NCBI RefSeq assembly: GCF_041270065.1
Contig: NZ_CP065958.1
Coordinates: 3,782,001-3,846,000 of the forward strand
Length of the DNA stretch: 64,000 bases
Reading direction: 5' to 3'
DNA from: Streptomyces fradiae
GTDB lineage: Bacteria > Actinomycetota > Actinomycetes > Streptomycetales > Streptomycetaceae
Both the position numbers and the translations under genes were made by a program. Under the pieces are notes generated by a model. It saw only the letters and a list, made by a program, of their open reading frames with translations. It was not told where the DNA came from and did not search any database. Shown piece after piece: positions 42,175 to 64,000 of the stretch (position 1 is the first letter of the stretch; every line of letters starts with the position of its first letter).

Positions 42175-43782
42175 ATGGCGGCCACTGGATCCGAGAAGCA
42201 GGGCTCGAAGGCGTTCTACGTCACGACCCCCATCTACTACGTCAACGACGCTCCTCACCTGGGCCACGCCTATACGACCGTCGCAGGCGACGTGCTCACC
42301 CGCTGGCACCGCCAGCGCGGTGAGAAGGTGTGGTACCTCACCGGCACGGACGAGCACGGTCAGAAGATCATGCGCACCGCGGAGGCGAACGGCGTCAGCC
42401 CGCAGGAGTGGTGCGACAAGCTCGTCGAGGAGGCCTGGAAGCCCCTCTGGGAGCACCTGAACATCGCGAACGACGACTTCATCCGCACCACCCAGAAGCG
42501 TCACACCGACCGCGTCCAGGAGTTCGTGCAGGACCTGTACGACAAGGGCGAGATCTACAAGGGCGGCTACGAGGGCCCGTACTGCGTGGGCTGTGAGGAG
42601 TTCAAGCTCCCCGGCGACCTCATCGAGGCGGAGGACGGCACGAAGCTGTGCGCCGTCCACAAGAAGCCGGTGGAGATCCTCAAGGAGGAGAACTACTTCT
42701 TCAAGCTGAGCGAGTACGGTCCGAAGCTGCTCGAGTTCTACGAGGCGAACCCGGGCTTCGTGCAGCCGGAGTCGGCCCGCAACGAGGTGCTGAACTTCGT
42801 CAAGCAGGGCCTTGAGGACCTCTCCATCTCGCGCTCGACCTTCGACTGGGGCATCCCGGTGCCGTGGGACAAGGAGCACGTGATCTATGTCTGGATCGAC
42901 GCGCTCCTGAACTACGCGACGGCGGTCGGCTACAACGAGAACCCGGAGAAGTTCGACGCGACCTTCCCGGCCAACGTCCACCTCATCGGCAAGGACATCC
43001 TCCGCTTCCACGCGATCATCTGGCCGGCCATGCTGATGGCGCAGGGCCTGCCGGTGCCGGGCCGGGTCGCGGCGAACGGCTGGCTGATGGTCGGCGGCGA
43101 GAAGATGTCGAAGTCGAACCTGACCGGCATCAAGCCGCAGGACCTGACCTCGCACTTCGGCGTGGACGCGTACCGCTGGTACTTCCTGCGGGCGATCGCG
43201 TTCGGCCAGGACGGCTCGTTCTCGTGGGAGGACTTCTCCGCCCGCTACACCTCCGAGCTGGCGAACGACTACGGCAACCTCGCCTCGCGCGTGGCGGCGA
43301 TGGTCGGCAAGTACTTCGGCGGCGAGCTGCCGGCGGCGACGGCCGAGGGCGACGCGGAGAAGGCGCTGCACGAGGGCCTGGCGAAGGCCGTCGAGACGGC
43401 GGACCGGAAGATCGGCGAGGAGCTGGACTTCCAGGCCGGCATCCTGGCGATCTTCGACTTCGTGAAGCAGGTCAACGGCTACATCACGGAGCAGGAGCCC
43501 TGGAAGGTCGCGAAGGACGAGTCTGAGGAGGGCCGGGCCCGCCTGGCGACCATCCTCTACACGGCCGCCGAGTCCCTCCGCGCGGTCGCCGTCCTCCTCA
43601 ACCCGATCATGCCGGAGACCTCTCAGGCCCTCTGGGAGTCCCTGGGCGCCGAGCCCTCCCTGGGCGCCCTGGCCACCCAGCCGGTCCAGTCCGCCGCCAC
43701 CTGGGGCCAGCTCCCGTCCGGCGCGACGATCACGAAGGGCGCGGTGCTCTTCCCGCGCCTGGAGGACCCGAAGAAGGCCTGA
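42175..43782 (+). CDS. metG: Methionyl-tRNA synthetase
   Basis: Encodes 535 residues, class I synthetase. HIGH-type motif is HLGH (28-31, in NDAPHLGHAYTT) and KMSKS is at 310-314 (GGEKMSKSN). The connective peptide has one cysteine pair (YCVGCEEF) and a later LCAVH, so the zinc knuckle is of the single, reduced type. No C-terminal dimerisation extension is present. It charges tRNA-Met with methionine in the cytoplasm. TAAAAT at 42162-42167 ends 7 nt before ATG 42175 and no ribosome site is present, so this gene is probably leaderless. A hairpin follows. Confidence 0.96.
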   Translation: MAATGSEKQGSKAFYVTTPIYYVNDAPHLGHAYTTVAGDVLTRWHRQRGEKVWYLTGTDEHGQKIMRTAEANGVSPQEWCDKLVEEAWKPLWEHLNIANDDFIRTTQKRHTDRVQEFVQDLYDKGEIYKGGYEGPYCVGCEEFKLPGDLIEAEDGTKLCAVHKKPVEILKEENYFFKLSEYGPKLLEFYEANPGFVQPESARNEVLNFVKQGLEDLSISRSTFDWGIPVPWDKEHVIYVWIDALLNYATAVGYNENPEKFDATFPANVHLIGKDILRFHAIIWPAMLMAQGLPVPGRVAANGWLMVGGEKMSKSNLTGIKPQDLTSHFGVDAYRWYFLRAIAFGQDGSFSWEDFSARYTSELANDYGNLASRVAAMVGKYFGGELPAATAEGDAEKALHEGLAKAVETADRKIGEELDFQAGILAIFDFVKQVNGYITEQEPWKVAKDESEEGRARLATILYTAAESLRAVAVLLNPIMPETSQALWESLGAEPSLGALATQPVQSAATWGQLPSGATITKGAVLFPRLEDPKKA

Positions 43783-43836: not shown

Positions 43837-43893
43837 GCCGTATGGCCGAAAACCGCGCTGCGCCCCCTGGCCCCCGCCCTACGGTCTCGCCCC

Positions 43894-44688
43894 ATGTCGA
43901 CACCACCGCCCCACCCCGCGTATGGCCACCCCGGGTACGGCCACCCCTCGTACGGCCACCCCACGTACGGCCACCCGCCGCAGGGCCCGTACCAGCAGCC
44001 GGGCCCGTACCCCGGCTGGGGACCGCCGCCCCCGCCGCCCGAGCCGAAGAACCGGACCGGCATGATCCTCGGCATCGTCGCCGCGGGCATCGCCGGGGTG
44101 CTGCTCCTGTCCTGGATCGGCAACGGCGGCCTGCGCGGCGGCGCCGACTCCGCGTTTCCGGCCGCGACACACCGGCTGGTGCTCCCGAAGACGCTGCTCG
44201 ACGGCCGCTACACGCTCGGCAAGGACGAGTCCCAGCGCGCCGAAGCCGGCCTCGCGGGCACCGACAGGACCATGATCCGGAATCCGAAGGGCGTGGCGGG
44301 CCAGTATGCGGGCTCCGGCGAGGACGGCGCGGGGATCCTCGTCATCACGGGTCTCTACGGCCGGATCAAGGACCCCGACACCGCTCGCCGGAACATCCTC
44401 AAAGGCGCGGCGGAGGGCAAGGGCACCACGGTCCTGGTCCCGCCGAAGGACGTGACGCCACCCGGCTCGGACACCGAGATCACCTGCCAGGTCCTCGCCA
44501 CGGAGCAGTCCGACGGCGGCGGCCGGCTCACCTACCCCGTGTGCGCCTGGGCGGACGCCAACACCAACGCGGCCGTCGCGGAGATGTCGGCCGGAACGGT
44601 GTCCGCCGCCCCGGAGTCCCTCGACCTCACGAAGGCCGCCCGCACGACCCTCACGATCCGCACCGAGACCCGCCGCCCCGTGAGCTGA
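43894..44688 (+). CDS. Single-pass membrane protein with YGHP-rich N-terminus
   Basis: Encodes 264 residues. The cytoplasmic N-terminus contains four YGHP repeats (43921-43980, 15 bp per unit) and Pro/Gly-rich text up to residue 50. One transmembrane helix follows (about 56-74, GMILGIVAAGIAGVLLLSW). The outer domain (about 85-264) is a soluble fold with a Cys pair (TCQVLA and VCAWAD), suggesting a disulphide. Such YG/P-rich plus TM plus small domain proteins are frequent in actinobacteria; function unknown. TACGGT ends 8 nt before ATG 43894. No operon partner. Confidence 0.78.
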   Translation: MSTPPPHPAYGHPGYGHPSYGHPTYGHPPQGPYQQPGPYPGWGPPPPPPEPKNRTGMILGIVAAGIAGVLLLSWIGNGGLRGGADSAFPAATHRLVLPKTLLDGRYTLGKDESQRAEAGLAGTDRTMIRNPKGVAGQYAGSGEDGAGILVITGLYGRIKDPDTARRNILKGAAEGKGTTVLVPPKDVTPPGSDTEITCQVLATEQSDGGGRLTYPVCAWADANTNAAVAEMSAGTVSAAPESLDLTKAARTTLTIRTETRRPVS

Positions 44689-44777
44689 CGAACGAGCCGT
44701 CCCCTTTCGGCCATCAACTGCGGTCCTGCGCCGTCACCCGTGGGGGTGACGCGACCCCACTCCACCCCGCCGGGTCG

Positions 44778-45164
44778 GTGGCATATGCCAGCCTAGGCCT
44801 GCGCATCGAGGCGTACCGCAAGGGCAACGCCCGTCCCGACTGCGTACTCGCGCCGAACGACACCTTCGCCGGCCAGGGCGAGTGGGCCTCCCCCGACGGC
44901 GTTCTCATGGCGGTGGAGGTGACCTCCCACGACTCCGACACCGACCGCCGCGACCGCGTCGAGAAGCCCCGCGCCTACGCGGAGAGCGGCGTCCCGGTCT
45001 ACCTCCTGATCGACCGCGCGGCCGGCGAAGTGCTCGTCCACTCCCAGCCGGGCGACGGTCGCTACGACATGGTGGTCACGGTCACCCTCGGCAAGACCGT
45101 GACTCTGCCGGATCCGGTGGGCATGGAGCTGGACACCGAGCCCCTGACGGCCTGGGTCGACTGA
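44778..45164 (+). pseudogene. Uma2 family endonuclease, N-terminally truncated
   Basis: The frame encodes the C-terminal two thirds of a Uma2 (PD-(D/E)XK-fold) protein: YRKGNARPDCVLAPNDTFAG, then PDGVLMAVEVTSHDSDTDRR and PVYLLIDRAAGEVLVHSQPG. The catalytic Asp in RPD and the ExT in EVTS are present. Complete homologues have about 65-70 further N-terminal residues, which have no counterpart upstream: the preceding 90 bp (44689-44777) do not translate into family sequence. A GTG at 44778 could start a 128-residue fragment. Probably a remnant at the edge of the accessory island. Confidence 0.65.
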
Positions 45165-45236
45165 ACCGGCCACTTCCAGCCGCCATCGGCCGTATGTTCG
45201 TTGCTCGTGGAAATATCCGCATGACACCATGCGTGA

Positions 45237-45740
45237 GTGAGTGACAACGGGGACGACATAGCGAAGCCTCAACGGGTTTCGAAATTGGTCGAGTTGGCGG
45301 CTTCTTCCGTCCCGGCGACTCCGGACGTAGCCGTCCACATCGCTCCCACGGCAGCGCCGACCGACGAAGAGGCGTCGGCCAGGCGGGAGTTCGCGCGTTT
45401 GCTCGGCGAATTCCGGCGTACCGCGGTGCTGGTGCCGTTCGATGAGTTCGGGAGTCTGTGGACGTCCGACTTCGGCGGGGTGCGGTGGATCTGCGCGTTC
45501 TCGGACGAGGAGGCGCTGGCCCGGTTCGCGGTGGCGCGGAAAGAAGCGGGGCGGGAGTGGGCGTACCGGACGGTTCTGGGTGCGCGGTTGCTTGACGTGA
45601 TGGTGCCGATGCTGCCCGGTCCGGGCGGAGTCGCGCTGGATGCCGGAAGCGCGGACGGGGTGGTGTTTCCGCCGGTGGCGGGGGTCGTCCCGGACGAGGT
45701 GGCGGTGGATCTCGGGGGAACGGGGGCGGGGACGCGGTGA
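45237..45740 (+). CDS. SseB-like domain protein, first gene of the RHS toxin operon
   Basis: Encodes 167 residues. The core FARLLGEFRRTAVLVPFDEF then GGVRWICAFSDEEALARFAV and MLPGPGGVALDAGSADGVVF matches the SseB N-terminal domain in order and spacing. In streptomycetes this domain is common next to polymorphic toxin genes, where it may act as adaptor or chaperone for secretion. GTG 45237 is used; the stop overlaps the next GTG by 4 nt. It is the first gene of a three- or four-gene operon ending in the RHS toxin and immunity genes. Function is inferred from neighbours. Confidence 0.75.
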   Translation: MSDNGDDIAKPQRVSKLVELAASSVPATPDVAVHIAPTAAPTDEEASARREFARLLGEFRRTAVLVPFDEFGSLWTSDFGGVRWICAFSDEEALARFAVARKEAGREWAYRTVLGARLLDVMVPMLPGPGGVALDAGSADGVVFPPVAGVVPDEVAVDLGGTGAGTR

Positions 45741-46369
45741 GTGGGAACGAGCCTGAGCTGGTGGCGCCGGCGGCGGCGCTGGCGGAGATCGCGAAGGGCA
45801 TCGACCTGGCGCATTCCGAGCTGAAGGATCTCGGAATGATCGGCCAGGCGTCGGTGGGGCGGGGGTTCTCCGGCCTGGCGCTGTCGGGGCTGGAACTGGG
45901 GCACGGTGGGCTGGCGTCGGAGTTCGAGACGTTCTGCAACCGGTGGGAGTGGGGTGTGCGGGCGCTGACCCTGCGGGGGAACGGTTTCGCGCAGGGGGTC
46001 GGCCTGTCGGCGGGCTCGTTCGCGGAGCAGGAGCAGTACGTCAAGGACACGTTCAAGATCGGCTTGAACTCCCTGAACGGAAACCCGCATCTGTCCGAGG
46101 ACGAGGTCAAGCAGATGCGCTGGGAGACCATCCGCGACCAGCATGCGTGGGACGACGCGGACTGGAGCGAGGAGTCGTTCGCCAAGGCCGACGAAGAGAT
46201 CAAGCAGACCTGGAAGAACACCGGTTACGACGTCCTGGACGCGCAGATGGACTCGATGGAGCGCTCGGGGCTGATCGACTCGGCGGACCGCAAGGTCATG
46301 GACGAGCAGATCAAGGACGTCTACGACCCTGACCAGGCGACGATCGACCAGGCCGAGCAGCCGCGGTAG
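45737..46369 (+). CDS. Accessory protein of the RHS toxin operon (WXG/ESX-like helical protein)
   Basis: Encodes 210 residues, mostly helical. The N-terminal part (PAAALAEIAKGIDLAHSELK) resembles helical pairs of WXG100-type secretion targets, and WEWGVRALTL holds a W-x-W-G turn. The C-terminal half is acidic (NPHLSEDEVKQMRWETIRDQ, ADEEIKQTWKNTGYDVLDAQ). I do not recognise a named family; homologues appear, from memory, directly upstream of RHS toxin genes in Streptomyces. GTGA overlap with the SseB-like gene and a 14-nt gap to the RHS gene show operon membership. A chaperone or secretion partner of the toxin is the likely role. Confidence 0.7.
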   Translation: MSGNEPELVAPAAALAEIAKGIDLAHSELKDLGMIGQASVGRGFSGLALSGLELGHGGLASEFETFCNRWEWGVRALTLRGNGFAQGVGLSAGSFAEQEQYVKDTFKIGLNSLNGNPHLSEDEVKQMRWETIRDQHAWDDADWSEESFAKADEEIKQTWKNTGYDVLDAQMDSMERSGLIDSADRKVMDEQIKDVYDPDQATIDQAEQPR

Positions 46370-46383
46370 GGGGAGAGCAGCTG

Positions 46384-49300
46384 ATGGTCAACTGGCGGGA
46401 CTGGGGCGACCGGATCGTCGACGGGGTCGACCGGCGTATCGACAGAGGCAAGGAACTCGTCGGCGAAGGCGTCGACTACGTGACCGACAAGACCGGCCAG
46501 GCCCTGGACAAGGCGGGCGCCCATGGCTGGGCGGACGCGGTCGAGGACTGGGGCGACGAGACCGCCTCCTCCCTGGGCGCCGAGGTCGGGGAGCGGCAGC
46601 TCGGGCAGACCGAGCAGGCGGACGAGCTGATCCACGGCAAGCCGGAGGCGATCGCCGCCACCGTGAAGAACCTGCGGGACTTCCAGAAGGCGTTCGACCT
46701 GGTCGGCGGCGGTATGCGGAAGCTGGACTCCAGCCATTGGAAGGGGGCCGCGGCCAACACCTTCCGGGAGAAGTTCCAGACCCTGCCGACGGACTGGCTG
46801 CACGCGGCGGACGCGATGGAGAACGCGGCCAAGGCTCTGGAGGCGTACTCGGATGCTGTCGTCGGTGCCCAGGGCACGGCGCGTGAGGCCATCGCGCTGT
46901 ACAAGGAGGGCGACAAGGAGACCAAGGCGGCACACGACGCGCATCAGAAGAAGGTCGCCGCCTACGAGACGGCCCGCACCGGTGACCACCCGCTGCCGGA
47001 CCCCGGGGACTTCTCCGACCCGGGCGAGTCCAGGCGGCAGCGCGCACGGGAGATCCTGCAGAACGCCCGGAGCGCTCGCAACGAGGCGGGGGAGAGAGCG
47101 AAGACAGCCGTCCGTGCCGCGCTCGCGCACGCGCCGAAGGAGCCGACGGGCCTGGAGAAGGCCAAGCTCGAGCTGGTGGACTACAGCCTGGAACAGGGTT
47201 TCGAGCTGGCCCACGTCGGAGGCGGCGTCGTCAAGGGCACGGCCGGGCTGATCAACTTCGTCCGCTCGCTCAACCCGCAGGATCCGTACAACGTGACCCA
47301 CCCGGCGGAGTACCAGAAGGGCGTCCACATGACGCTCGCCGGCCTGGTCTCCACGGCGGCCAACCCGGACCGGGCGCTGAAGAACGCCTGGGAAGCGTTG
47401 AAGGACGACCCGGATGAGTTCTTCGGCCGGCTCGTACCGGAAGCGCTCGGCACGAAGGGCGCGGGCGGGCTGAAGACCCTCAACCGCCTCAAGCACCTCG
47501 ACGACGTCCCCACGAAGAAGCCGGGAGGCGCCAAGGGCCCGGCCCGTGACGCCCAGGCGGAGGACCCGCACGGCGCCGGCCGGAAGCCGGACGAGATGTG
47601 CGAGTGCGGCGACCCCGTGGACATGGCCACGGGCCGGGTCATCCTGCCGCAGACGGACCTCGCGCTGGCGGGCGCCCTGCCGGTGGTTCTCACCCGACGC
47701 TACGAGTCCTCGTACCGCGCGGGCCGCTGGTTCGGACCGTCATGGGCGAGCACGATCGACCAGCGGCTGGAAATCGACGCGGAGGGGGTGCTGCTGCTCT
47801 GCGAGGACGGCAGCCTGCTCGCCTATCCGCATCCAGCACCCGGCGTCCCCGTGCTGCCGACCCACGGCACCCGCCGCTGGGCGCTGGACCGGGACCCCTC
47901 GGACGGCACGTACACGGTGACGGCCCCGGAGACGGGTGTCGTACGCCACTTCGCCACGGTTGGGGACGGAGACGAGGCCGTCCTCGTTCAGATCGACGAC
48001 CGCAACGGCAACTGGATCACCTTCGGCTACGACGCGGAGGGCGCGCCCACAGAGGTCGTCCACCACGGCGGATACCGGCTCCGGCTGACCACGGACGGAT
48101 CCCGGATCACCGCGCTGCACCTGGGCGACCAGGAGATCCGCCGCTATAGCTACGCCGACGGCCACCTGACCTCCGTCGCCGACTCCGCAGGCCACCCGCT
48201 GTGCTTCGGCTACGACGAGCGGGGCCGGATGACGTCCTGGACCGACAGCAACGGCCACCGCTACGAGTACGTCTACGACGACCGCGACCGCTGTGTGTCC
48301 CAGTCGGGCCGCGACGGCGTCATGGCCGGACGCTTCACCTGGGACGACGGCGAGTCGACCTACACGGACGCACTCGGCCGCACGACCCGCTTCGAGGTGA
48401 ACGACCAGGCCCGGATCACCGCCGAGACGGCACCCGACGGTGGGGTCACCCGGTCCACGTACGACGGTCGGGGCCGTCTGCTGTCCCGTACGGATCCCCT
48501 GGGCCACACGACCTTCTTCGCCTACGACGGGGAGGGCCGGCTCACGACCGTCACCCGCCCCGACGGACGGACCACGACGGCCGAGTACGACGCCCTCGGG
48601 CTGCCGGTGCGGGTACGGCGCGCCGACGGTACGACGGTCCGGCAGACGTACGACGAGCGCGGCAATCGCACGTCGGTCACGAGCGCCTCTGGCGTGCGCA
48701 CGGAGTTCGGGTACGACGACCGGGGACGGCTCACGACCGTCACGGATCCGCTCGGTGCGGTCGCCCGGGTCCGCACCGACGACGTGGGGCTTCCGGTCGC
48801 GGTCACCGACCCGCTGGGCAGCACGACGTCGTACGCGTACGACGCCTTCGGCCGTACGGTCCGGGTCACTGACGCGCTCGGCGCGGAGACCCGGCTGGAG
48901 TGGACGCCCGAGGGCCGACTCAGCAGCCGGGTGAACCCGGACGGCGCCGTCGAGTCCTGGACGTACGACGGCGAGGGCAACTGTCTGACGCACACGGACG
49001 CCGTCGGCGGCACCACGGTCTTCACCTACGGGGACTTCGACGTCCTGGCGACGCGCACCGACCCCGACGGAACGCGCTACGCCTTCACCCACGACGCGGC
49101 CCTGCAGCTGACGGGCGTCACCAACCCGCAGGGTCTGACCTGGACATACGCCTACGACGCGGCGGGGCGCACGGTCTCCGAGTCGGACTTCGACGACCGG
49201 ACCCTGACGTACGCGTATGACGCGGCGGGCCGCCTGCTGTCCCGCACCAACGGCGCGGGGGAATCGGTCACGTTCGAGCGGAACACACTCGGCCAGATGC

Positions 49301-50934
49301 TCCGCAAGGACGCGGACGGTGCGGTCACGACGTACGAATACGACGTGTTCGACGAGTTGGCGATGGCGGTGAGCCCGGACGCGACGCTGACGCGCCTGCG
49401 GGACCGCGACGGCCACTTGATATCGGAGACGGTCAACGGTCGCACGCTGAAGTTCGCTTACGACGAGGTCGGCCGCCGAACCGGCCGCACGACGCCGGGC
49501 GGGGCGGTGAGCGCGTGGTCCTACGACGCGGCGGGCCGCCGCACGGAGCTGACCACGTCGGGCCGGACGATGTCCTTCACGCACGACGCCGTGGGCCGCG
49601 AACTGACTCGCACGATCGGCGACTTCGCGTCCATGACCTCGGCCTTCGACGAGGCCGGCCGACTGACCGCGCACGAGGTGACGAGCCGGGGCCGACGCCT
49701 CCAGCAACGCGCCTACCACTACCGCCCGGACGGAAACCTGGTCGGGATCGACGACCACCTCGCCGGCCCGCGCCGTTTCGACCTGGACGCGGCGGGCCGG
49801 GTGACGGCGGTACGCGCCGACCAGTGGACGGAGCGGTACGCGTACGACGAGGCCGGCAACCAGACGGAGGCCGTGTGGCCCCGCGATACGGAGGCGACGG
49901 GCCCGCGCACCTACACCGGCACCCGCATCACCCGCGCGGGCGGCGTCCGCTACGAGCACGACGCCCAGGGCCGGACGATTCTGCGCCAGAAGACCCGCCT
50001 GTCGCGGAAGCCGGACACCTGGCGCTACACCTGGGACGCCGAGGACCGCCTGACCTCCGTCATCACCCCCGACGGCACGGAATGGCGCTACGTCTACGAC
50101 CCGCTCGGCCGCCGCATATCCAAACAATCCCCGCTGGAGACCGTCCACTTCACCTGGGACGGCACCACCCTCTGCGAGCAGTCCACCGAAGCCGTCACCC
50201 TGACCTGGGACCACTCCGGCCTGCGCCCCCTCGCCCAGACGGAACGCCGCCGCGACACCGACGAGACCCGCTTCTTCGCCATCGTCACCGACCTGATCGG
50301 CACCCCGACCGAGTTGGTCGACGAGTCCGGCACCCTGGCCTGGCGCTCCCGCACCACCCTCTGGGGCACGACCTCCTGGACGAAGTCGGCGACGGCCTAC
50401 ACCCCCCTCCGCTTCCCGGGCCAGTACTTCGACCCGGAGACAGGCCTCCACTACAACCACTTCCGCTACTACGACCCGGAACCCGGCCGCTACCTCTCCC
50501 AGGACCCGCTGGGCCTGGCCCCGGCCCCAAACCCGGCGACGTACGTCCACAACCCGCACACGTGGAGCGACCCGCTGGGGCTCGGCCCGTGTCCGACGGA
50601 TGCCAAGGGGGCCTGGGAGAACAAGGCAGACTTCTCCAGCCAGAAGGTCATGAGCAAGAAGTTCGATGCCCACGCCGGAGACTTCCTGGACGCGCCAGGA
50701 AACCGCAACAAGGTCAATCTGCAGAGATTCGAAGAAGCGATGCGTGAGCACATGACAGCAGATGGAACGAAGATATACCGCTACAATTACCGAAATCAGG
50801 GACAAGCGGTCGGATTCATCGATCCTGCGACCCAGAAAATGGTCATGCTGCACACTGACGGGACATTCTGGTCAGCATGGAAACTCGGAGACAAGCAGTT
50901 TCAGGGCATCGTCGACAAGGGATTCCTGTGGTGA
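46384..50934 (+). CDS. RHS-repeat polymorphic toxin with colicin-D-like C-terminal domain
   Basis: Encodes 1516 residues. An N-terminal helical region with the turn SSHWKGAAANTF (about 117-128) looks like a type VII secretion (WXG/LXG-like) module. DUF6531 follows at about 405 (CECGDPVDMATGRVILPQTD). About 30 YD/RHS repeats (530-1330; YDERGNRTSV, YDAAGRTVSE and so on) form the shell. The RHS core lies at about 1340-1395 (RFPGQYFDPETGLHYNHFRY, then LSQDPLGL). The variable toxin tip is residues 1400-1516: FDAHAGDFLDAPGNRNKVNL, YRYNYRNQGQAVGFIDPATQ and DGTFWSAWKL. This pattern resembles colicin D-type tRNases. GGGGGAGAG precedes ATG 46384. The tip's GC content is lower than the shell, as expected for an exchanged module. 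Confidence 0.88.
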   Translation: MVNWRDWGDRIVDGVDRRIDRGKELVGEGVDYVTDKTGQALDKAGAHGWADAVEDWGDETASSLGAEVGERQLGQTEQADELIHGKPEAIAATVKNLRDFQKAFDLVGGGMRKLDSSHWKGAAANTFREKFQTLPTDWLHAADAMENAAKALEAYSDAVVGAQGTAREAIALYKEGDKETKAAHDAHQKKVAAYETARTGDHPLPDPGDFSDPGESRRQRAREILQNARSARNEAGERAKTAVRAALAHAPKEPTGLEKAKLELVDYSLEQGFELAHVGGGVVKGTAGLINFVRSLNPQDPYNVTHPAEYQKGVHMTLAGLVSTAANPDRALKNAWEALKDDPDEFFGRLVPEALGTKGAGGLKTLNRLKHLDDVPTKKPGGAKGPARDAQAEDPHGAGRKPDEMCECGDPVDMATGRVILPQTDLALAGALPVVLTRRYESSYRAGRWFGPSWASTIDQRLEIDAEGVLLLCEDGSLLAYPHPAPGVPVLPTHGTRRWALDRDPSDGTYTVTAPETGVVRHFATVGDGDEAVLVQIDDRNGNWITFGYDAEGAPTEVVHHGGYRLRLTTDGSRITALHLGDQEIRRYSYADGHLTSVADSAGHPLCFGYDERGRMTSWTDSNGHRYEYVYDDRDRCVSQSGRDGVMAGRFTWDDGESTYTDALGRTTRFEVNDQARITAETAPDGGVTRSTYDGRGRLLSRTDPLGHTTFFAYDGEGRLTTVTRPDGRTTTAEYDALGLPVRVRRADGTTVRQTYDERGNRTSVTSASGVRTEFGYDDRGRLTTVTDPLGAVARVRTDDVGLPVAVTDPLGSTTSYAYDAFGRTVRVTDALGAETRLEWTPEGRLSSRVNPDGAVESWTYDGEGNCLTHTDAVGGTTVFTYGDFDVLATRTDPDGTRYAFTHDAALQLTGVTNPQGLTWTYAYDAAGRTVSESDFDDRTLTYAYDAAGRLLSRTNGAGESVTFERNTLGQMLRKDADGAVTTYEYDVFDELAMAVSPDATLTRLRDRDGHLISETVNGRTLKFAYDEVGRRTGRTTPGGAVSAWSYDAAGRRTELTTSGRTMSFTHDAVGRELTRTIGDFASMTSAFDEAGRLTAHEVTSRGRRLQQRAYHYRPDGNLVGIDDHLAGPRRFDLDAAGRVTAVRADQWTERYAYDEAGNQTEAVWPRDTEATGPRTYTGTRITRAGGVRYEHDAQGRTILRQKTRLSRKPDTWRYTWDAEDRLTSVITPDGTEWRYVYDPLGRRISKQSPLETVHFTWDGTTLCEQSTEAVTLTWDHSGLRPLAQTERRRDTDETRFFAIVTDLIGTPTELVDESGTLAWRSRTTLWGTTSWTKSATAYTPLRFPGQYFDPETGLHYNHFRYYDPEPGRYLSQDPLGLAPAPNPATYVHNPHTWSDPLGLGPCPTDAKGAWENKADFSSQKVMSKKFDAHAGDFLDAPGNRNKVNLQRFEEAMREHMTADGTKIYRYNYRNQGQAVGFIDPATQKMVMLHTDGTFWSAWKLGDKQFQGIVDKGFLW

Positions 50935-51713
50935 CACATTCGGCATACGAGCGATCCCCAGACTTCACCATCATGCTTGGCGAGGATGGGGCCTTCAACC
51001 CCGTTTGGCTACGCGGCAAGAACATCGTCCCTGTCCCTGTGGGGCGACAGCTGGACGCGGCCCTGGCTCGTCGCATCGTGGCCGGCTGCCGTGCCGTCGG
51101 GGCACCACATGCGCTGTGGACTGACCTTTCGAACGGCGCCGACGGAGCGGACTCCGTGGTTGCCGCACTTCCGCTGGACTCCGGCCGTGGACAGATGCGC
51201 CCACCGGGCCTCGTCTACACCCCGGACCTGCAAGGTGCCGTCCTGCTTCCCGAGGAGGGCTACGCACTCGTCGGTGGAACAGCCCACTTCATGGCGGCCG
51301 CTGTCGGCGAAGGCATCGACGAAGCGCGCACCCGCTTCGCCCGCTATGCCCACAATCTCGCGCATCGCCACCCCGACCTGACCGCGGTAGCGGACGCCTA
51401 CCCCTCCGCGCACCGGGCATGGTCCCGACCGACCGACGTCGAACCTGGTAGCGCGGCGGCGCGACAGCTGACGATGCTGCACGAGTTCATCATCGGCGCT
51501 TGTAGCGCGCAGGAGTTCGCACGCGGATGGTGGGAAGCTCGTCGAGAATCCCAGGCAATCGGGGAACGCATTCGGGGCCCACTCGCCGATCTGTTCAACC
51601 GGGTCTTCATGAGTTTGGAAGACTATGCGATCGAGCCCGATCTGAGGGAACCCGGCGACCTCTCTGATGCGGAACTCCAAGCAGTGGTACGTGAGATCAT
51701 GAAGGGGGATTGA
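50931..51713 (+). CDS. Immunity protein with colicin-immunity domain, paired with the RHS toxin
   Basis: Encodes 260 residues. The last 85 residues (LHEFIIGACSAQEFARGWWE, then RIRGPLADLFNRVFMSLEDY and EPDLREPGDLSDAELQAVVR) fit the colicin D immunity-domain family: four helices with the Y.I.P.LR.P.DL signature. This supports a colicin-D-like toxin immediately upstream. The first 165 residues are a separate domain I do not recognise (FTIMLGEDGAFNPVWLRGKN). GTG 50931 overlaps the toxin stop (GTGA), coupling immunity to toxin translation. Cytoplasmic. The fused N-terminal domain is unusual. Confidence 0.75.
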   Translation: MTHSAYERSPDFTIMLGEDGAFNPVWLRGKNIVPVPVGRQLDAALARRIVAGCRAVGAPHALWTDLSNGADGADSVVAALPLDSGRGQMRPPGLVYTPDLQGAVLLPEEGYALVGGTAHFMAAAVGEGIDEARTRFARYAHNLAHRHPDLTAVADAYPSAHRAWSRPTDVEPGSAAARQLTMLHEFIIGACSAQEFARGWWEARRESQAIGERIRGPLADLFNRVFMSLEDYAIEPDLREPGDLSDAELQAVVREIMKGD

Positions 51714-51991
51714 AATGGGTTGGCAAAGAGCGCGGGAAGAACCTGACACATCGCCACCACCGGTCTGACAGTCTCACACGACTCCGCACCTGAGAACGCA
51801 CCTTCAGTCCCCGAGGCGCTGCGGAGTGTTGCTCATTGCGCCATTTCCAACCTGACAGCGGTCGCCGTGTGTTGTGACTGAGCGCTTCATTGCTGACTGC
51901 GTCCGGACGAAGCCAGCCAAGCTGGAATCAACTGGGCGATCGATCCCAGTCATGACAGGATGACGGTTCAGGACGGGGGAGGCGGGGCGGT

Positions 51992-52591
51992 ATGGGGCTG
52001 GACTACAGCTATGAGATCTTCATGCCCCCTCGGAACGTTGCGAGAGCACTGACCCGGCTGGCCGAGCTCGCCCCCCAAGGCGGCGAGACGCCGCCGCTTC
52101 CGGTGACCCTGCCGGGCGGAGAGCAGTTGATCGTGCCGTTCACCTCGAAGTTCAAGAGCGAACCGGTCGACTGTTCAGCAGGCGGCTCGCTCGACCTGGA
52201 CACCTCGATCGTCGTCGGCGTTGACGAAGCGGTGCGCGAGTTCTTCCTTCGCGATTGCGACAGGGTCGACGAGCAGGGACGAGCGTCGGTCGGGTACATC
52301 TACCTGACGGTCAGGTTCTCCCCCGCATGGCACCCGAACTTTGCGTCACTGCAGTTCACAGCCGCTACCTCAAGCATGAGCCGGATGTTCGTGCAGTCCG
52401 CGAGCGTCAGGAAGATGTTCACCGACCTCACCGCCACCACCGGTGGTGTGTGCTGCCTCCTCGACACCGAGACCGACATCTTCGACATCTGCTGGCTCAA
52501 CGGCGAGACGTTCAGTGGTGAGACTGTTCCCGGCACCCGTTTCTCGCGCTTCCACGATCTCGTCGCCGCCTGGTGCGAGCCGGTGGAGTAG
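51992..52591 (+). CDS. Hypothetical protein downstream of the toxin-immunity pair
   Basis: Encodes 199 residues: MGLDYSYEIFMPPRNVARAL, then GGSLDLDTSIVVGVDEAVRE and YIYLTVRFSPAWHPNFASLQ. No signal or membrane segment. The N-terminal MGLDYSYEIF start and overall size resemble small immunity-like proteins found near toxins, but I cannot assign a family. About 280 bp separate it from the immunity gene, so it has its own promoter (GGGGGAGGCGGGG precedes ATG 51992). It could be an orphan immunity gene left by a former toxin tip, or an unrelated gene. The 51714-51991 gap holds nothing I can recognise. Confidence 0.6.
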   Translation: MGLDYSYEIFMPPRNVARALTRLAELAPQGGETPPLPVTLPGGEQLIVPFTSKFKSEPVDCSAGGSLDLDTSIVVGVDEAVREFFLRDCDRVDEQGRASVGYIYLTVRFSPAWHPNFASLQFTAATSSMSRMFVQSASVRKMFTDLTATTGGVCCLLDTETDIFDICWLNGETFSGETVPGTRFSRFHDLVAAWCEPVE

Positions 52592-52753
52592 AACGGGGAC
52601 GGCGCCCGCAGGGATACGGCGCACCTGTCCGGCCAACGCTCAACCGACCAACTGAAGTGCTCAGTCACATATGTTGGGCGGATCTGCGGAACGACGAAGC
52701 TCCTGGTAGACGGGTTCTCGACCAAGATCGCCCGCAGCCACCAGGACCTTCGT

Positions 52754-53432
52754 GTGCTTGTCTACCCGTCGTCGATCGACCTGTCCAGTCGCACCCTGCG
52801 GTACCTGACCGGGCGACTCGCTGTCCGGCAAGGGGAGATCGGGACTCGGTGGCGGCGTCTGACCGCCGGCCGTCAGGCTCTGCTCGCTCTGGCCCATCTG
52901 CGCTGTGGTGACACCTACGCCCAGCTCGCCGCCGGGTTCGGGGTCGGCATCGCGACCGTGTACCGCTACATACACGAGGCCGTCGACGTACTGGCCGCCC
53001 TCGCGCCCACCCTGGCCGAGGCGATGCGCATCGCGCGGACCAAGGCGTTCGTGATCCTGGACGGCACCCTGCTGCCTTTCGACCGGATCGCCGCCGACAC
53101 CCCGTACTACTCGGGCAAACACAAGCGTCACGGCATGAAACGTCCAAGTCCTCACCGACCCGGTCGGCCGCCTGTTGTGGGCCTCGCCCGCGTTGCCCGG
53201 CTCCACCCACGACCTAACCGCCGCCCGCACCCACGGCATCGACGATGCATTCACCGACGCCGACCTCAAGTGCTGGGCCGACAAGGCATACCAGGGCGCC
53301 GGCGGGTCCATCCGGGTGCCCTTCCACGGCCGTCGCCTCAAGCGGTGGCAGCGCCGCCACAACAGCACACACGCCAAGATCCGCTGCCTCGGCGAGCAGG
53401 CCATGGTAAGCGCGGATGGCCACGCTCGGTGA
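52754..53432 (+). pseudogene. IS5-family-type transposase, frameshifted and truncated
   Basis: Frame 1 (52754 to about 53140) gives the HTH and first DDE part: GEIGTRWRRLTAGRQALLAL, then HLRCGDTYAQLAAGFGVGIA and DGTLLPFDRIAADTPYYSGK. After an A run (53138-53140) the reading continues in another frame: VQVLTDPVGRLLWASPALPG, then STHDLTAARTHGI and DLKCWADKAYQGAGG. One extra A in the cggcatgaaac region explains the shift. The protein then stops after LGEQAM, where the usual C-terminal 50-60 residues are absent and host-like sequence begins. No terminal inverted repeats could be placed. Inactive. Confidence 0.8.
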
Positions 53433-53893
53433 CGTGATTCAGAAGAACTCCCTTGATTTCCGCGTCCAGTTGTCGCCGACTCTGCGCGGGGCGCGGCTCG
53501 CCCGGCTGCTGGCCGTCGAGTGGTTGCAGGCCCGCGAACTGCCGTACGGCATCGGCGAGGCGGCCACGCAGATCGTCGCCGAGCTCGCCACCAACGCCGT
53601 GACCCACGGGCGGGTGACCGGCCGGGACTTCCTGGCCGCGCTGGCGGTGGACGCGGGCACGCTCCGTATCGAGGTCACGGACACCCGGGGCAACCGCCTC
53701 CCCGACGCCGACCGGGGCGGAGCTCGGGCTGTTGCTCGTCGAGGCGCTGGCCGACCGGTGGTGCGTCGAGCTCGGGCCCGTACCCCGGAAGACGGTGTGG
53801 GCGGAGCTGGATCTCACCGGTTCACCGGAGTTCGATAAACCGGGTTCCGGTGCTTCGGGTGGTCCCAAGTGCCAAGTACGAGAGGGGAAATGA
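53416..53893 (+). pseudogene. HATPase-type ATP-binding protein (anti-sigma-like), frameshifted
   Basis: The N-terminal half reads normally: DFRVQLSPTLRGARLARLLA, then GIGEAATQIVAELATNAVTH (N box with Asn) and VDAGTLRIEVTDTRGNRLPD. After about 53720 the continuation shifts by one frame: LGLLLVEALADRWCVELGPV then PRKTVWAELDLTGSPEF. The join lost part of the G-box region (E.GRGLLLVEALADRW is expected, but E.GRG is missing), so a small deletion caused the shift. Such proteins are SpoIIAB/RsbW-like kinases of streptomycetes. The 5' end abuts the transposase remnant. Not functional. Confidence 0.75.
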
Positions 53894-53950
53894 CCCCACC
53901 AAGCCCACCCTTTCCCTCCAAGGGCGGCTCGGTCACCCTTGCAGGTGAAA

Positions 53951-53996
53951 TATGCCAACTGGGCTGGCGTCCGGCCGGGTTGCCTGATCTACGCTC
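53951..53996 (+). promoter_or_regulatory. Promoter-like module 1: tatgcca - gggttg - ctacgctc
   Basis: tatgcca at 53951-53957, gggttg at 53977-53982 and ctacgctc at 53989-53996 sit at fixed distances of 26 and 12 nt. It lies 96 nt before the ATG of the HTH gene at 54092. The same words and the same spacing occur at 54972-55017. ctacgctc could be a -10 (tacgct). Confidence 0.6.
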
Positions 53997-54091
53997 AGCT
54001 CGACCGGCACAACCGCAGACATGCGTCGGCCCCCGCAGGGACTGCAATCCCGGTGCGAGGGCCTGACCATCCAGGAAGTAGGAGCTTCCCG

Positions 54092-54970
54092 ATGGGTAAC
54101 CAGAACATTAGCGTGCGCCCGTACGCCCCGTCCCGTAACGGCGGGAAGAACCACCCTCACCGGCGTACGAGTGGTGGCGTCATTCACGAGCACACGCGCC
54201 ACACCGAGCGGTTCACGGTCGTCGGCAACGACCTCATCCAGCACTCGGAGATGACGGGGCTGGCCCGCGCGATCGGCGCGTACATCCAGTCGTTGCCCAG
54301 CGGCTCGCCCGTCGACATCAAGACCATCGCCGCACAGATGCACGAAGGCACCACCCGTACCGCCGCCGCCATGCGCGAGCTGGAGGCCCACGGCTATCTG
54401 CGACGGGAGCGCGTACGCCTGCCGAACGGGCGGATCGTGACGCGGACGGTGTTCTGCAACCAGCCGGGCCGCGGCAAGGCCGAACCTCCAACCGCGCGGC
54501 CGAAGCCGAAGCCGAAGCAGGCATCGAGGACGACACAGACAGACCGGCCCGAACCGCGTCGCCGCGCGCTGCCCGCCGTGCCGCAGCCGGCGTGGCCGAG
54601 GCCCGACCTGATCGAGACCGCGCACGCCCTACTCGCCTGCCTCCGCCTCGAAGACCGCCGGCTGCTGCTCTCCGCCGCCGAAACCGAGCACCTGGCCCAG
54701 GGTGTCGTCGCCTGGCTGGAACGGGACCTCGCTCCCGACCAGATCCACCGCGTACTCACCTCCGACCTGCCGGAGCCGCTGTACCGCCCCGCCGCCCTCC
54801 TGGCCCACCGCCTCGCCGACCGACTCCCCGCCGCACCCCTGTTCCGGGCGTCACGACATCTCCCGCTCCAGAACTGCGACACCTGCGACCACGCCTTCCG
54901 GGGCCCCGCGCCCGGCCGCTGCGCGGCCTGCCGCCACACCGGACCGGGAGCCGATCACTCACCCGAGTGA
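54092..54970 (+). CDS. Helix-turn-helix protein with C-terminal zinc-finger-like Cys cluster
   Basis: Encodes 292 residues. The N-terminal domain (about 30-125) is a winged helix: RHTERFTVVGNDLIQHSEMT, then GLARAIGAYIQSLPSGSPVD and AAMRELEAHGYLRRERVRLP. A basic linker (130-165, PKPKPKQASRTTQTD) precedes a helical part (166-260). A C-terminal CxxC...CxxC motif (NCDTCDHAF ... RCAACR) probably binds zinc. Such proteins are frequent in Streptomyces, where they resemble replication-initiator-like or phage-type regulators. ATG 54092 follows GGAG. A short paralogue begins at 55061, and both share the upstream module. DNA binding is inferred; target unknown. Confidence 0.78.
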   Translation: MGNQNISVRPYAPSRNGGKNHPHRRTSGGVIHEHTRHTERFTVVGNDLIQHSEMTGLARAIGAYIQSLPSGSPVDIKTIAAQMHEGTTRTAAAMRELEAHGYLRRERVRLPNGRIVTRTVFCNQPGRGKAEPPTARPKPKPKQASRTTQTDRPEPRRRALPAVPQPAWPRPDLIETAHALLACLRLEDRRLLLSAAETEHLAQGVVAWLERDLAPDQIHRVLTSDLPEPLYRPAALLAHRLADRLPAAPLFRASRHLPLQNCDTCDHAFRGPAPGRCAACRHTGPGADHSPE

Positions 54971-56375: not shown

Positions 56376-58199
56376 TCAGCCGCGCGCCGCGTCCGGGTGG
56401 ACCGCTTCCGTGACCGGGCGGACGCCCTCCGTGGGCTTCGGCTCGGCCGGCTTGCGGAGCTGGATGTTGAGCTCGCGGAGGCGGGACTCGTCGAGCTCCG
56501 TCGGGGCGCCCATCATCAGGTCCTGGGCGTTGCCGTTGAGCGGGAAGGCGATGGTCTCGCGGATGTTGGGCTCGTCGGCGAGGAGCATCACGATGCGGTC
56601 GACGCCCGGGGCGATGCCGCCGTGCGGCGGGGCGCCGAACTGGAAGGCGCGGAGCATGCCCGCGAACTCGGTCTCGACGACCTCGCGCGGGTAACCCGCG
56701 ATCTCGAAGGCCTTGAACATGATGGCGGGCTCGTGGTTCCGGATCGCGCCGGAGGAGAGCTCGATGCCGTTGCAGACGATGTCGTACTGCCAGCCGAGGA
56801 CGTCCAGCGGGTCCTGGGTCTCCAGGGCCTCCAGGCCGCCCTGCGGCATCGAGAAGGGGTTGTGCGAGAAGTCGATCTTGCCGGTCTCCTCGTCCTTCTC
56901 GTACATCGGGAAGTCGACGATCCACGCGAAGCAGAAGACGTCCTCCTCGAACTGGCCGGCGCGCTTCGCGGCCTCGACCCGGACCGGGCCCATGATCTTG
57001 GAGACCTCGTCGAACTCGCCCGCGCCGAAGAACACGGCGTGGCCGGCGGCCAGGCCGAGGCGCTCGGTGAGGACCTTGACGTTCTCCTCGGTGAGGAACT
57101 TGGCGATGGGGCCGGTGAGGGCGCCCTCCTCGCCGACGCGCACCCAGGCCAGGCCCTTGGCGCCCAGCGAGACCGCGAAGTCGCCGAGGCCGTCGAAGAA
57201 CTTGCGCGGCTGGTCACCGGTGTTCGGGACGGCGAGCGCGCGGACGTGCTTGCCGGCGAAGGCCTTGAACTCGGAGTTCTCGAAGACGTCGGTGATGTCG
57301 ACGAGCTCCAGCGAGGTCCGCAGGTCCGGCTTGTCGTTGCCGTACTTGAGCATCGACTCGCGGAACGGGATCCGCGGGAACGGGGAGGTGACGTGCCGCC
57401 CACCGCCGAACTCCTCGAAGAGCTCGGTCATCAGCTTCTCGATCGGCTGGAAGACGTCCTCCTGCTCGACGAAGCTCATCTCGACGTCGAGCTGGTAGAA
57501 CTCGCCCGGCGAGCGGTCGGCGCGGGCGTCCTCGTCGCGGAAGCAGGGCGCGATCTGGAAGTAGCGGTCGAAGCCGGAGATCATCAGCAGCTGCTTGAAC
57601 TGCTGCGGCGCCTGCGGCAGCGCGTAGAACTTGCCCGGGTTCAGACGGGACGGGACGACGAAGTCACGGGCGCCCTCGGGGGAGGTCGCGGTGAGGATCG
57701 GGGTCGCCATCTCGTTGAAGCCGAGCGCCACCATCTTGGAGCGGATCGCGGCGATGACGGCGGAGCGCAGCATGATGTTCTTGTGCATGCGCTCGCGGCG
57801 CAGGTCGAGGAAGCGGTACTCCAGGCGCCGCTCCTCGTTCACCCCGTCGTCGGTGTTGATGGTGAAGGGGATCTGCTGGGCCGCGCCGAGCACCTCGACC
57901 TCGGCGGCCTCGATCTCGATCTCACCGGTCGCGAGCTCCGGGTTGACGTTCTCGGCGCCGCGGGAGACGACCTTGCCGTCGACGCGGACGACGGTCTCCT
58001 TGGTCAGCTTGTCGAGGACCTCGGCCGCGGCGGTGCCGGGACGGGCGACCAGCTGAGTGATGCCGTAGTGGTCGCGCAGATCGATGAAGAGGATGCCGCC
58101 CAGGTCGCGCCGATTGTGCAGCCAGCCGCTCAGCCGGACGTCGGTGCCGACGTCAGAGGCGCGGAGCTCGCCGCAGGTGTGGGACCTGTACCGATGCAT
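56376..58199 (-). CDS. aspS: Aspartyl-tRNA synthetase
   Basis: Encodes 607 residues, the bacterial-type class IIb enzyme. The N-terminal OB-fold has [20 protein letters not shown]. Motif 2 is in [20 protein letters not shown], and motif 3 is [14 protein letters not shown]. The GAD insertion domain (about 290-420) is present. It charges tRNA-Asp. Whether it also charges tRNA-Asn (non-discriminating, with GatCAB) cannot be settled from this window. ATG 58199 is the standard start. It is convergent with the accessory island and shares the terminator at 56315. Divergent from the SpoIIE-type regulator gene. Confidence 0.97.
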
Positions 58200-63776: not shown

Positions 63777-64000
63777 TCAGCCGTACATCCGCCGCATCGC
63801 GTAGTCGACCATCTGCTCCACGGCCTTGGCGTCGAAGACCATCCGGTGGTCGCCCTCCATGTCGAGGACGAAGCCGTAGCCGGTCGGGAGCAGGTCGATC
63901 ACCTCGGCGCCGGTGATCACGAAGTACTTGGACTCCTTGCCCGCGTACCGCCGCAGCTCCTTCAGCGTGGTGAACATCGGGATCACCGGCTGCTGGGTGT
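63777..64000 (-). CDS. SseB family protein, N-terminus beyond the right edge
   Basis: The visible 73 residues end a minus-strand frame with no start inside the window except an internal Met. TQQPVIPMFTTLKELRRYAG, then KESKYFVITGAEVIDLLPTG and HRMVFDAKAVEQMVDYAMRR match the C-terminal half of actinobacterial SseB-domain proteins of about 140 residues. A palindromic terminator lies just downstream. The pirin gene follows on the same strand, so they are neighbours but not one operon. Unlike the SseB-like protein at 45237, this copy lies in core sequence. Confidence 0.85.
   Translation of the reverse strand, partial: TQQPVIPMFTTLKELRRYAGKESKYFVITGAEVIDLLPTGYGFVLDMEGDHRMVFDAKAVEQMVDYAMRRMYG

Follow-up and report, generated by a model that had tools for sequence, protein, structure and literature searches.

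An RHS toxin operon of Streptomyces fradiae with a conserved three-gene chassis and an exchangeable tip-immunity cassette

What is known of the factors that target toxins to type VII secretion systems (T7SS) comes mainly from Firmicutes and mycobacteria. In the PE/PPE-EspG arrangement, a helical pair is the exported unit and is served by a dedicated chaperone. For LXG toxins, the passages cited here compare the FxxxD motif of a Lap factor to the YxxxD/E export arm and describe that mutation of this motif in Lap1 abolishes toxin secretion (PMC9600955). EsaE, the chaperone of the nuclease EsaD, is described as EspG-like in the cited part of another report, and the Esa helper genes are likewise found ahead of an EsaD-like gene whose toxin domain is a different one (PMC10653861). 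At the opposite end of such proteins, DPxGL has been reported as the boundary between shell and tip in Rhs toxins of the type VI secretion system (T6SS), as far as the cited part of that source goes (PMC10763514), and the essential residues of colicin D are listed as K607, K608, H611, D614, and S677 in a 2012 study whose table for this toxin, in the part cited, names neither actinobacteria nor a T7SS (PMC3482391). Here, we analyze a window of 64,000 nucleotides (nt) from Streptomyces fradiae (NCBI RefSeq GCF_041270065.1, contig NZ_CP065958.1, positions 3,782,001 to 3,846,000), in which four genes at 45237-51713 encode an SseB-like protein, a 210-residue helical protein, a toxin that joins a T7SS_signal domain to an RHS shell, and an immunity protein.

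The architecture is that of a three-gene chassis (SseB-like, 210-residue helical, T7SS_signal-RHS) carrying an exchangeable tip-immunity cassette, which replaces the fixed four-gene system of the preliminary description. The locus probably encodes an interbacterial tRNase toxin exported by T7SSa with the help of a WXG-like targeting partner and an SseB-family chaperone. The genome is a single contig of 7.88 Mb; its protein relatives, as far as they carry an organism name, come almost entirely from Streptomyces. All four open reading frames were found on the + strand at the location and with the spacings first described (a 4-nt overlap, a 14-nt gap, and a 4-nt overlap). The spacing, as the sole basis, suggests a single transcript; a sigma-70-type scan of 44900-52100 found neither a promoter-like nor a terminator-like site. 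The immunity gene is counted from 50931, where the list of open reading frames starts it at 50877. The features discussed below are the following (window coordinates, strand, identity, and source).

45237-45740, + strand: SseB-family protein, 167 residues (open reading frame, PF07179)
45737-46369, + strand: 210-residue helical protein, predicted WXG100-like targeting partner with a C-terminal extension (open reading frame, hhalign)
45941-45955, + strand: RWxWG motif of the second protein, residues 69-73 (conservation in alignment)
46019-46033, + strand: FxxxE of the second protein, residues 95-99, putative export arm (hhalign alignment with the YxxxD of small partner proteins)
46384-50934, + strand: T7SS-signal/RHS-shell toxin, 1516 residues (open reading frame, Pfam)
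46429-47145, + strand: T7SS_signal domain PF21725, residues 16-254, with WKG at 119-121 (309.5 bits)
47608-50583, + strand: DUF6531 and RHS/YD shell, residues 409-1400 (PF20148, PF05593, PF25023, TIGR03696)
50554-50583, + strand: P-x4-DPxGL shell/tip boundary motif, residues 1391-1400 (direct match)
50653-50904, + strand: predicted Colicin_D nuclease tip PF11429, residues 1424-1507 (30.7 bits, cut-off 25)
50931-51713, + strand: predicted immunity protein, 260 residues (open reading frame; relatives directly downstream of tip relatives)
about 51468-51701, + strand: Colicin_immun-like domain PF09204 in the C-terminal third of the immunity protein (19.0 bits)
50605-54872, no strand: exchanged stretch with the tip, the immunity gene, a 199-residue hypothetical gene, and a transposase remnant (unmatched in L076, the closest relative found)

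A conserved three-gene chassis

A search with the second protein gave a match in 132 of the 295 same-genus genomes sampled. We read 121 loci around the second gene (41 + 80), which reduce to 117 distinct loci once the duplicates L078, L087, L093, and L142 are merged. At 116 of these, the SseB gene, the second gene, and the T7SS_signal gene follow one another directly on the same strand; at the remaining locus, L077, the contig stops right after the second gene. This recurrence confirms that the operon is beyond chance, and the gene-order survey proposed with the preliminary description thus found the first three genes together. The profile match to the second gene begins 4 nt inside the end of the SseB gene in 87 of the 121 loci (the four duplicates included). 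At L125 (7428-8692), the SseB and second-gene matches share one frame with pieces in another, probably through frame breaks and not a fusion.

Because these loci had been retrieved via the second gene, a reverse test was started from PF21725, searched in 296 genomes of the class. The test set comprised those 17 of the fetched loci in which the match to PF21725 begins at position 1-3 of the profile (L004, L005, and L156-L170), several of them the same places as in the second-gene set. The second gene lies directly upstream in 16 of the 17 and the SseB gene in 15. The genome of the window itself has two PF21725 genes, each preceded by the helper pair, with different tips.

The T7SS_signal runs into RHS in one frame at 97 of 116 loci. 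At 13 others, a T7SS_signal frame of 556-844 residues lacks RHS and still has the helpers upstream, and at the last six the frame is short or broken (L039, L089, L100, L113, L125, L140). Since those 13 loci pair the helpers with an RHS-less frame, the helpers track the secretion domain, not the shell or the tip. Where the T7SS_signal frame lacks RHS, five C-terminal parts were compared with Pfam: three match families (Stv, Gln_amidase, and Scabin-like), and the other two, one from the broken-frame locus L140, matched none.

Pairwise identities across 94 loci correlate at r 0.93 for the second protein and the T7SS_signal domain, 0.87 for SseB and the second protein, and 0.86 for SseB and T7SS_signal, with shared ancestry contributing to all three values. 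Judged from these sequence identities, the chassis genes diverge together. The 94 are the 98 loci with T7SS_signal and RHS in one frame minus L041, L086, L124, and L138 (broken frame or contig end); L045 is not among them, its second, non-RHS T7SS_signal gene having been taken.

These data bear on the alternative that the helpers are secreted along with the RHS shell as parts or plugs of it, or are effectors in their own right, with T7SS_signal alone directing export. Co-encoding with the toxin at 116 of 117 loci would fit such a role, and the WXG100-like EsxB, EsxC, and EsxD can themselves be secreted, according to the cited part of the source (PMC10653861). The presence of the same helpers before RHS-less frames, and an identity of the second gene that follows T7SS_signal most closely, argue against it, and we regard it as unlikely.

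The helper proteins and the type VII machine

No Pfam family exceeds its cut-off in the second protein; a FAD_binding_7 match (16 bits, cut-off 27, 2 of 21 alignment members) was taken as chance. Shorter PF21725 matches, entering the profile at position 43-71, occur in the class, both in other families and in the same genus. We fetched 14 such loci (L171-L184). A protein of roughly 100 residues is encoded directly upstream in eight of the 14, and these eight partners, two of them from same-genus genomes (L183, L184), were chosen by eye for alignment; the small upstream gene at L171 was left unused, and L176, L177, L178, L181, and L182 had no clear upstream partner. The eight small partners have in common an invariant tryptophan and a YxxxD motif, and six match the WXG100 family PF06013 weakly (E ≤ 0.1).

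Comparison of the second-protein family with these partners in hhalign gave a probability of 96.9% (E 1.8e-10) over residues 7-107. The score was 65.5; none of 100 column-shuffled controls exceeded 20.6, a reversed profile gave 12.2, and four other profile pairs reached at most 15.0. The four partners least like the other four still gave 93%. By this profile comparison, residues 7-107 are homologous to the small WXG100-like proteins whose genes directly precede those of related effectors. The protein is best described as WXG100-like and not as a member of PF06013, which it does not match and whose proteins it exceeds in length (210 residues versus about 100). The tyrosine and aspartate of the partners' YxxxD fall on F95 and E99. 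Position 99 is aspartate or glutamate in 118 of 118 aligned sequences; R69, W70, and G73 of the RWxWG motif are present in all 118 and W72 in 117. A structure model of the second protein alone is poor (predicted local distance difference test, pLDDT, 57), and its fold, the two-helix hairpin included, is therefore derived from homology. VIA matches of this model span residues 120-210 and were not interpreted, the model being too poor.

The first protein scores 21.1 bits against PF07179 (SseB), barely over the cut-off of 21. PF07179 is matched at E ≤ 0.01 by 19 of its 27 aligned relatives, and the protein aligns with three other PF07179 matches of the same genome at 95.9% in hhalign. Its structure model, good in a core of about residues 50-140, retrieves from the PDB (Foldseek, VIA) TTHA0547, Tic22, and two chloroplast motor chains as best matches, with modest scores. 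A PDB sequence search with the profiles of the first and second proteins returned nothing meaningful. We consider the first protein a probable effector-specific chaperone of the SseB family. An SseB-family match (PF07179, 35.4 bits) runs across the right edge of the window on the - strand (63816-64000).

The toxin carries the WXG-type signal expected of its domain: W119 is found in 109 and G121 in all 116 of 116 aligned sequences. As would be expected for a T7SSa substrate, the same genome holds ESX machine genes, with EccB at 5911214 and EccC at about 5925466-5928114 (800 bits). A WXG100 pair lies in the interval between these two genes, and one of its proteins is over the Pfam cut-off. EccB is present in 263 of 295 same-genus genomes. 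It occurs in each of the 132 carriers of the second gene and in 131 of the 163 non-carriers (Fisher p 2e-9), an association that ignores kinship among the genomes and in which some absences may be false, candidates having been scored per genome up to 10 for the second gene and 5 for EccB. The early guess that the first two proteins are adaptors for type VII export is well supported for the second gene, through its WXG100-like profile homology, its T7SS_signal neighbour, and its tie to EccB; for the SseB-like gene it is plausible and unproven.

Exchange of the tip and its immunity gene

The search of the toxin C-terminus against PF11429 bore out the colicin-D-like tip first proposed. The tip aligns to solved colicin D with E 6e-10, and K1425, K1426, H1430, D1433, and S1497 align with the five essential residues of colicin D (5/5), the colicin D numbering being counted from the alignment, where the tip is one residue longer from the lysine pair to the histidine. 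The tip is accordingly classed by its sequence as a putative Colicin_D-family nuclease with the five essential residues kept, which would cleave tRNA.

For the colicin-type immunity domain predicted alongside it, the C-terminal match of 19.0 bits stays under the Pfam cut-off of 22, but 17 of 29 aligned immunity sequences match PF09204 at E ≤ 0.01 (best 4.7e-8). The immunity profile reached the colicin D immunity protein in the PDB with E 0.55 only, below unrelated signal-recognition-particle rows (0.46-0.51). The protein is also longer than this domain: its first 120 or so residues (window 50931-51290) match no Pfam family. Among 115 aligned relatives, nine begin at query residue 100-123 and lack the N-terminal part, and one ends at 148; an account of the short relatives as the N-terminal part was ruled out by those nine.

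The tip matches in nine same-genus genomes, that of the window included. An immunity relative lies directly downstream of the tip or a tip fragment in six of the eight others (L197-L202), so that the proposed pairing holds, the two travelling together; none was seen at L203 (tip match 39% over 51 residues) or L204 (two short pieces). At L200 (7359-8172), a fragment of a colicin-D tip stands as an orphan, together with a broken relative of the immunity gene, beside another RHS toxin with a different tip. Immunity-gene relatives also occur upstream of RHS operons, away from a matching tip, at L086 (5172-5927) and L088 (1699-2349). A cognate immunity gene directly after the tip, together with orphan tip or immunity cassettes, is a trait of polymorphic toxins.

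So is a conserved N-terminal delivery part with variable C-terminal tips, and the 94 tips on this chassis fall into 34 families (before duplicates were merged, 35 from 99 tips including that of the window, with L041, L086, L124, L125, and L138 omitted). Among locus pairs with 85% identity or more between their second proteins, three have tips of one family and 56 have tips of different families. Ten tips were scanned in Pfam; Ntox30, Ntox28, and Tox-HNH-EHHH (twice) were found, and the other six matched no family. Of 94 related RHS proteins, 82 contain P-x4-DPxGL.

Exchange is seen directly in a blastn comparison of the window with L076 (Streptomyces sp. SKN60), the closest of 80 loci. DNA identity is 95.1% across 44792-50604, which covers SseB, the second gene, signal, and shell; there is no match over 50605-54872, and 97.2% identity returns from 54873. 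The break falls at toxin residue 1407, seven residues past P-x4-DPxGL (1391-1400). Relatives of the tip are also carried by other chassis: identity at L197 is 89% in the tip, 50% in the second protein, and 62% in the shell, and at L198 the figures are 78%, 36%, and 53%. The stretch exchanged also holds a DDE_Tnp_4 transposase remnant (53175-53432) and a 199-residue hypothetical protein (51992-52591) of no family, whose DNA matches seven plasmid records from Streptomyces at 70-74%. When plasmids were searched with window 50605-52600, eight records matched, seven covering most of this gene and one covering 6% of the query; the tip had no match among the eight.

An operon in which tip and immunity gene overlap might also act purely inside the cell, as a toxin-antitoxin or phage-defence unit that is not exported, since a toxin-antitoxin pair would overlap in the same way. 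The T7SS_signal, the RHS shell, the 34 tip families, and the tip exchange are typical of exported polymorphic toxins, and we hold the internal unit to be very improbable.

The operon lies between a methionyl-tRNA synthetase gene (42175-43782, + strand) and an aspartyl-tRNA synthetase gene (56376-58199, - strand). A close metG relative was found in 15 of 129 loci searched, and the aspS side matches in eight of ten further loci compared, with various tips; the metG-aspS interval is a preferred site for such toxin islands. A functional link between the tRNase tip and these flanking genes was rejected, as the tips differ in those relatives that also have metG next to the operon. An open reading frame with a C-terminal Uma2 domain occupies 43842-45164, immediately ahead of the operon; in six loci, the match to it is confined to residues from about 310 on.

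Proposed export route and comparison with known systems

We propose that the WXG100-like part of the second protein pairs before export with the N-terminal, WXG-bearing T7SS_signal domain of the toxin and supplies the export arm, F95xxxE99 standing in place of YxxxD/E. The composite signal of WKG and F95xxxE99 would be read by EccC. As a dedicated chaperone, the SseB-family protein would maintain the solubility of the pair and pass it to the EccC motor, like EspG or EsaE. The RHS shell would enclose the colicin-D-type tip until delivery, when shell cleavage at the DPxGL boundary may free it to cut tRNA in a susceptible neighbour that lacks the immunity gene. In the producer, the immunity protein is expected to block the tip.

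Several observations weigh against this reading, beside the limits given above for the EccB association, the poor model of the second protein, and the sub-threshold score of the immunity domain. No Pfam WXG100 (PF06013) match at E ≤ 0.1 was found in the second protein or in any of the 21 alignment members, and position 95 is phenylalanine or tyrosine in 90 of 118 sequences and neither in 28. Among the PDB chains listed for the SseB-like model there was no EspG-like match, which excludes nothing. In the reverse test, L170, a PF21725 gene matching profile positions 1-148, lacks both helper genes, and L169 lacks a detectable SseB gene. The ESX locus is about 2.1 Mb from the window, and at L199 a tip relative (76% identical) belongs to an RHS protein for which neither a T7SS_signal nor helpers were detected.

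These last two points would also suit a toxin that is wall-associated or released by lysis, with a vestigial type VII domain and an SseB-like gene that acts as a regulator or general stress protein; the three further SseB-family matches elsewhere in the genome agree with it. The conserved WXG of the T7SS_signal, EccB in every one of the 132 carriers, and a WXG100-like second protein that is invariably acidic at the motif position speak against such a toxin, which we judge to be marginally less likely still than helpers acting as shell parts.

The SseB-family and large WXG100-like proteins might form a dedicated targeting pair of actinobacterial type VII secretion that has so far gone unrecognised. 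The pair would add a third family of chaperones to EspG and EsaE, would be the T7SSa equivalent of Lap1/Lap2, and would make with PF21725 a composite signal able to export giant RHS-caged toxins whose tips are interchangeable. We advance this wider reading tentatively, as a possibility a little short of an even chance. The operon offers two candidate targeting factors, one of them without any family, and the second protein was found in 132 of the 295 sampled same-genus genomes. The replacement of the tip while the helpers stayed is a natural experiment, FxxxE is a predicted export motif open to mutation, and the passage of a caged RHS toxin through a type VII machine becomes directly testable.

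Published analogues temper the suggestion that the layout is undescribed; we found no paper on this very layout in the open-licence literature. Nor did that literature yield a paper joining SseB with type VII secretion, which does not show its absence in print. The comparisons below extend to the cited parts of the sources. LXG effectors with Lap1/Lap2 (T7SSb, Firmicutes) likewise place small helical partners beside a polymorphic toxin with a helical N-terminal domain (PMC9600955). The present locus differs in its T7SSa, PF21725 instead of LXG, a single 210-residue partner, an SseB-family protein, and an RHS shell. The EsaD-EsaE-EsxBCD-EsaG cluster of Staphylococcus aureus also unites a nuclease toxin, WXG100-like partners, a non-WXG chaperone, and immunity, with families that differ by the matches found; the SseB-like model showed no EspG resemblance in the searches made (PMC10653861). 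PE/PPE-EspG of mycobacterial ESX resembles the operon in exporting a helical pair with a dedicated chaperone (PMC10653861), and a Pfam scan of the operon proteins gave no PE, PPE, or EspG family match.

The nearest actinobacterial case found is the Amycolatopsis LXG-type AaEAS, a T7SS toxin whose gene is preceded by that of a predicted targeting factor and followed by a likely immunity gene; it has an LXG domain, and the cited passages mention neither an RHS shell nor an SseB gene (PMC12691689). Colicin D/ImmD and the Colicin_D tips of CdiA-CT share the nuclease family, the five essential residues, and a probably related immunity family (PMC9990079, PMC3482391), whereas here the tip is borne by a T7SS/RHS chassis in Streptomyces and the immunity protein is extended at its N-terminus. 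T6SS Rhs effectors, for which self-cleavage is described, also have an RHS shell, with DPxGL between shell and variable tip, and have PAAR and the T6SS in place of the T7SS_signal (PMC10763514). The operon thus belongs to the polymorphic toxins and, by analogy, would act like LXG-Lap and EsaD-EsaE-Esx, with different helper families and through T7SSa.

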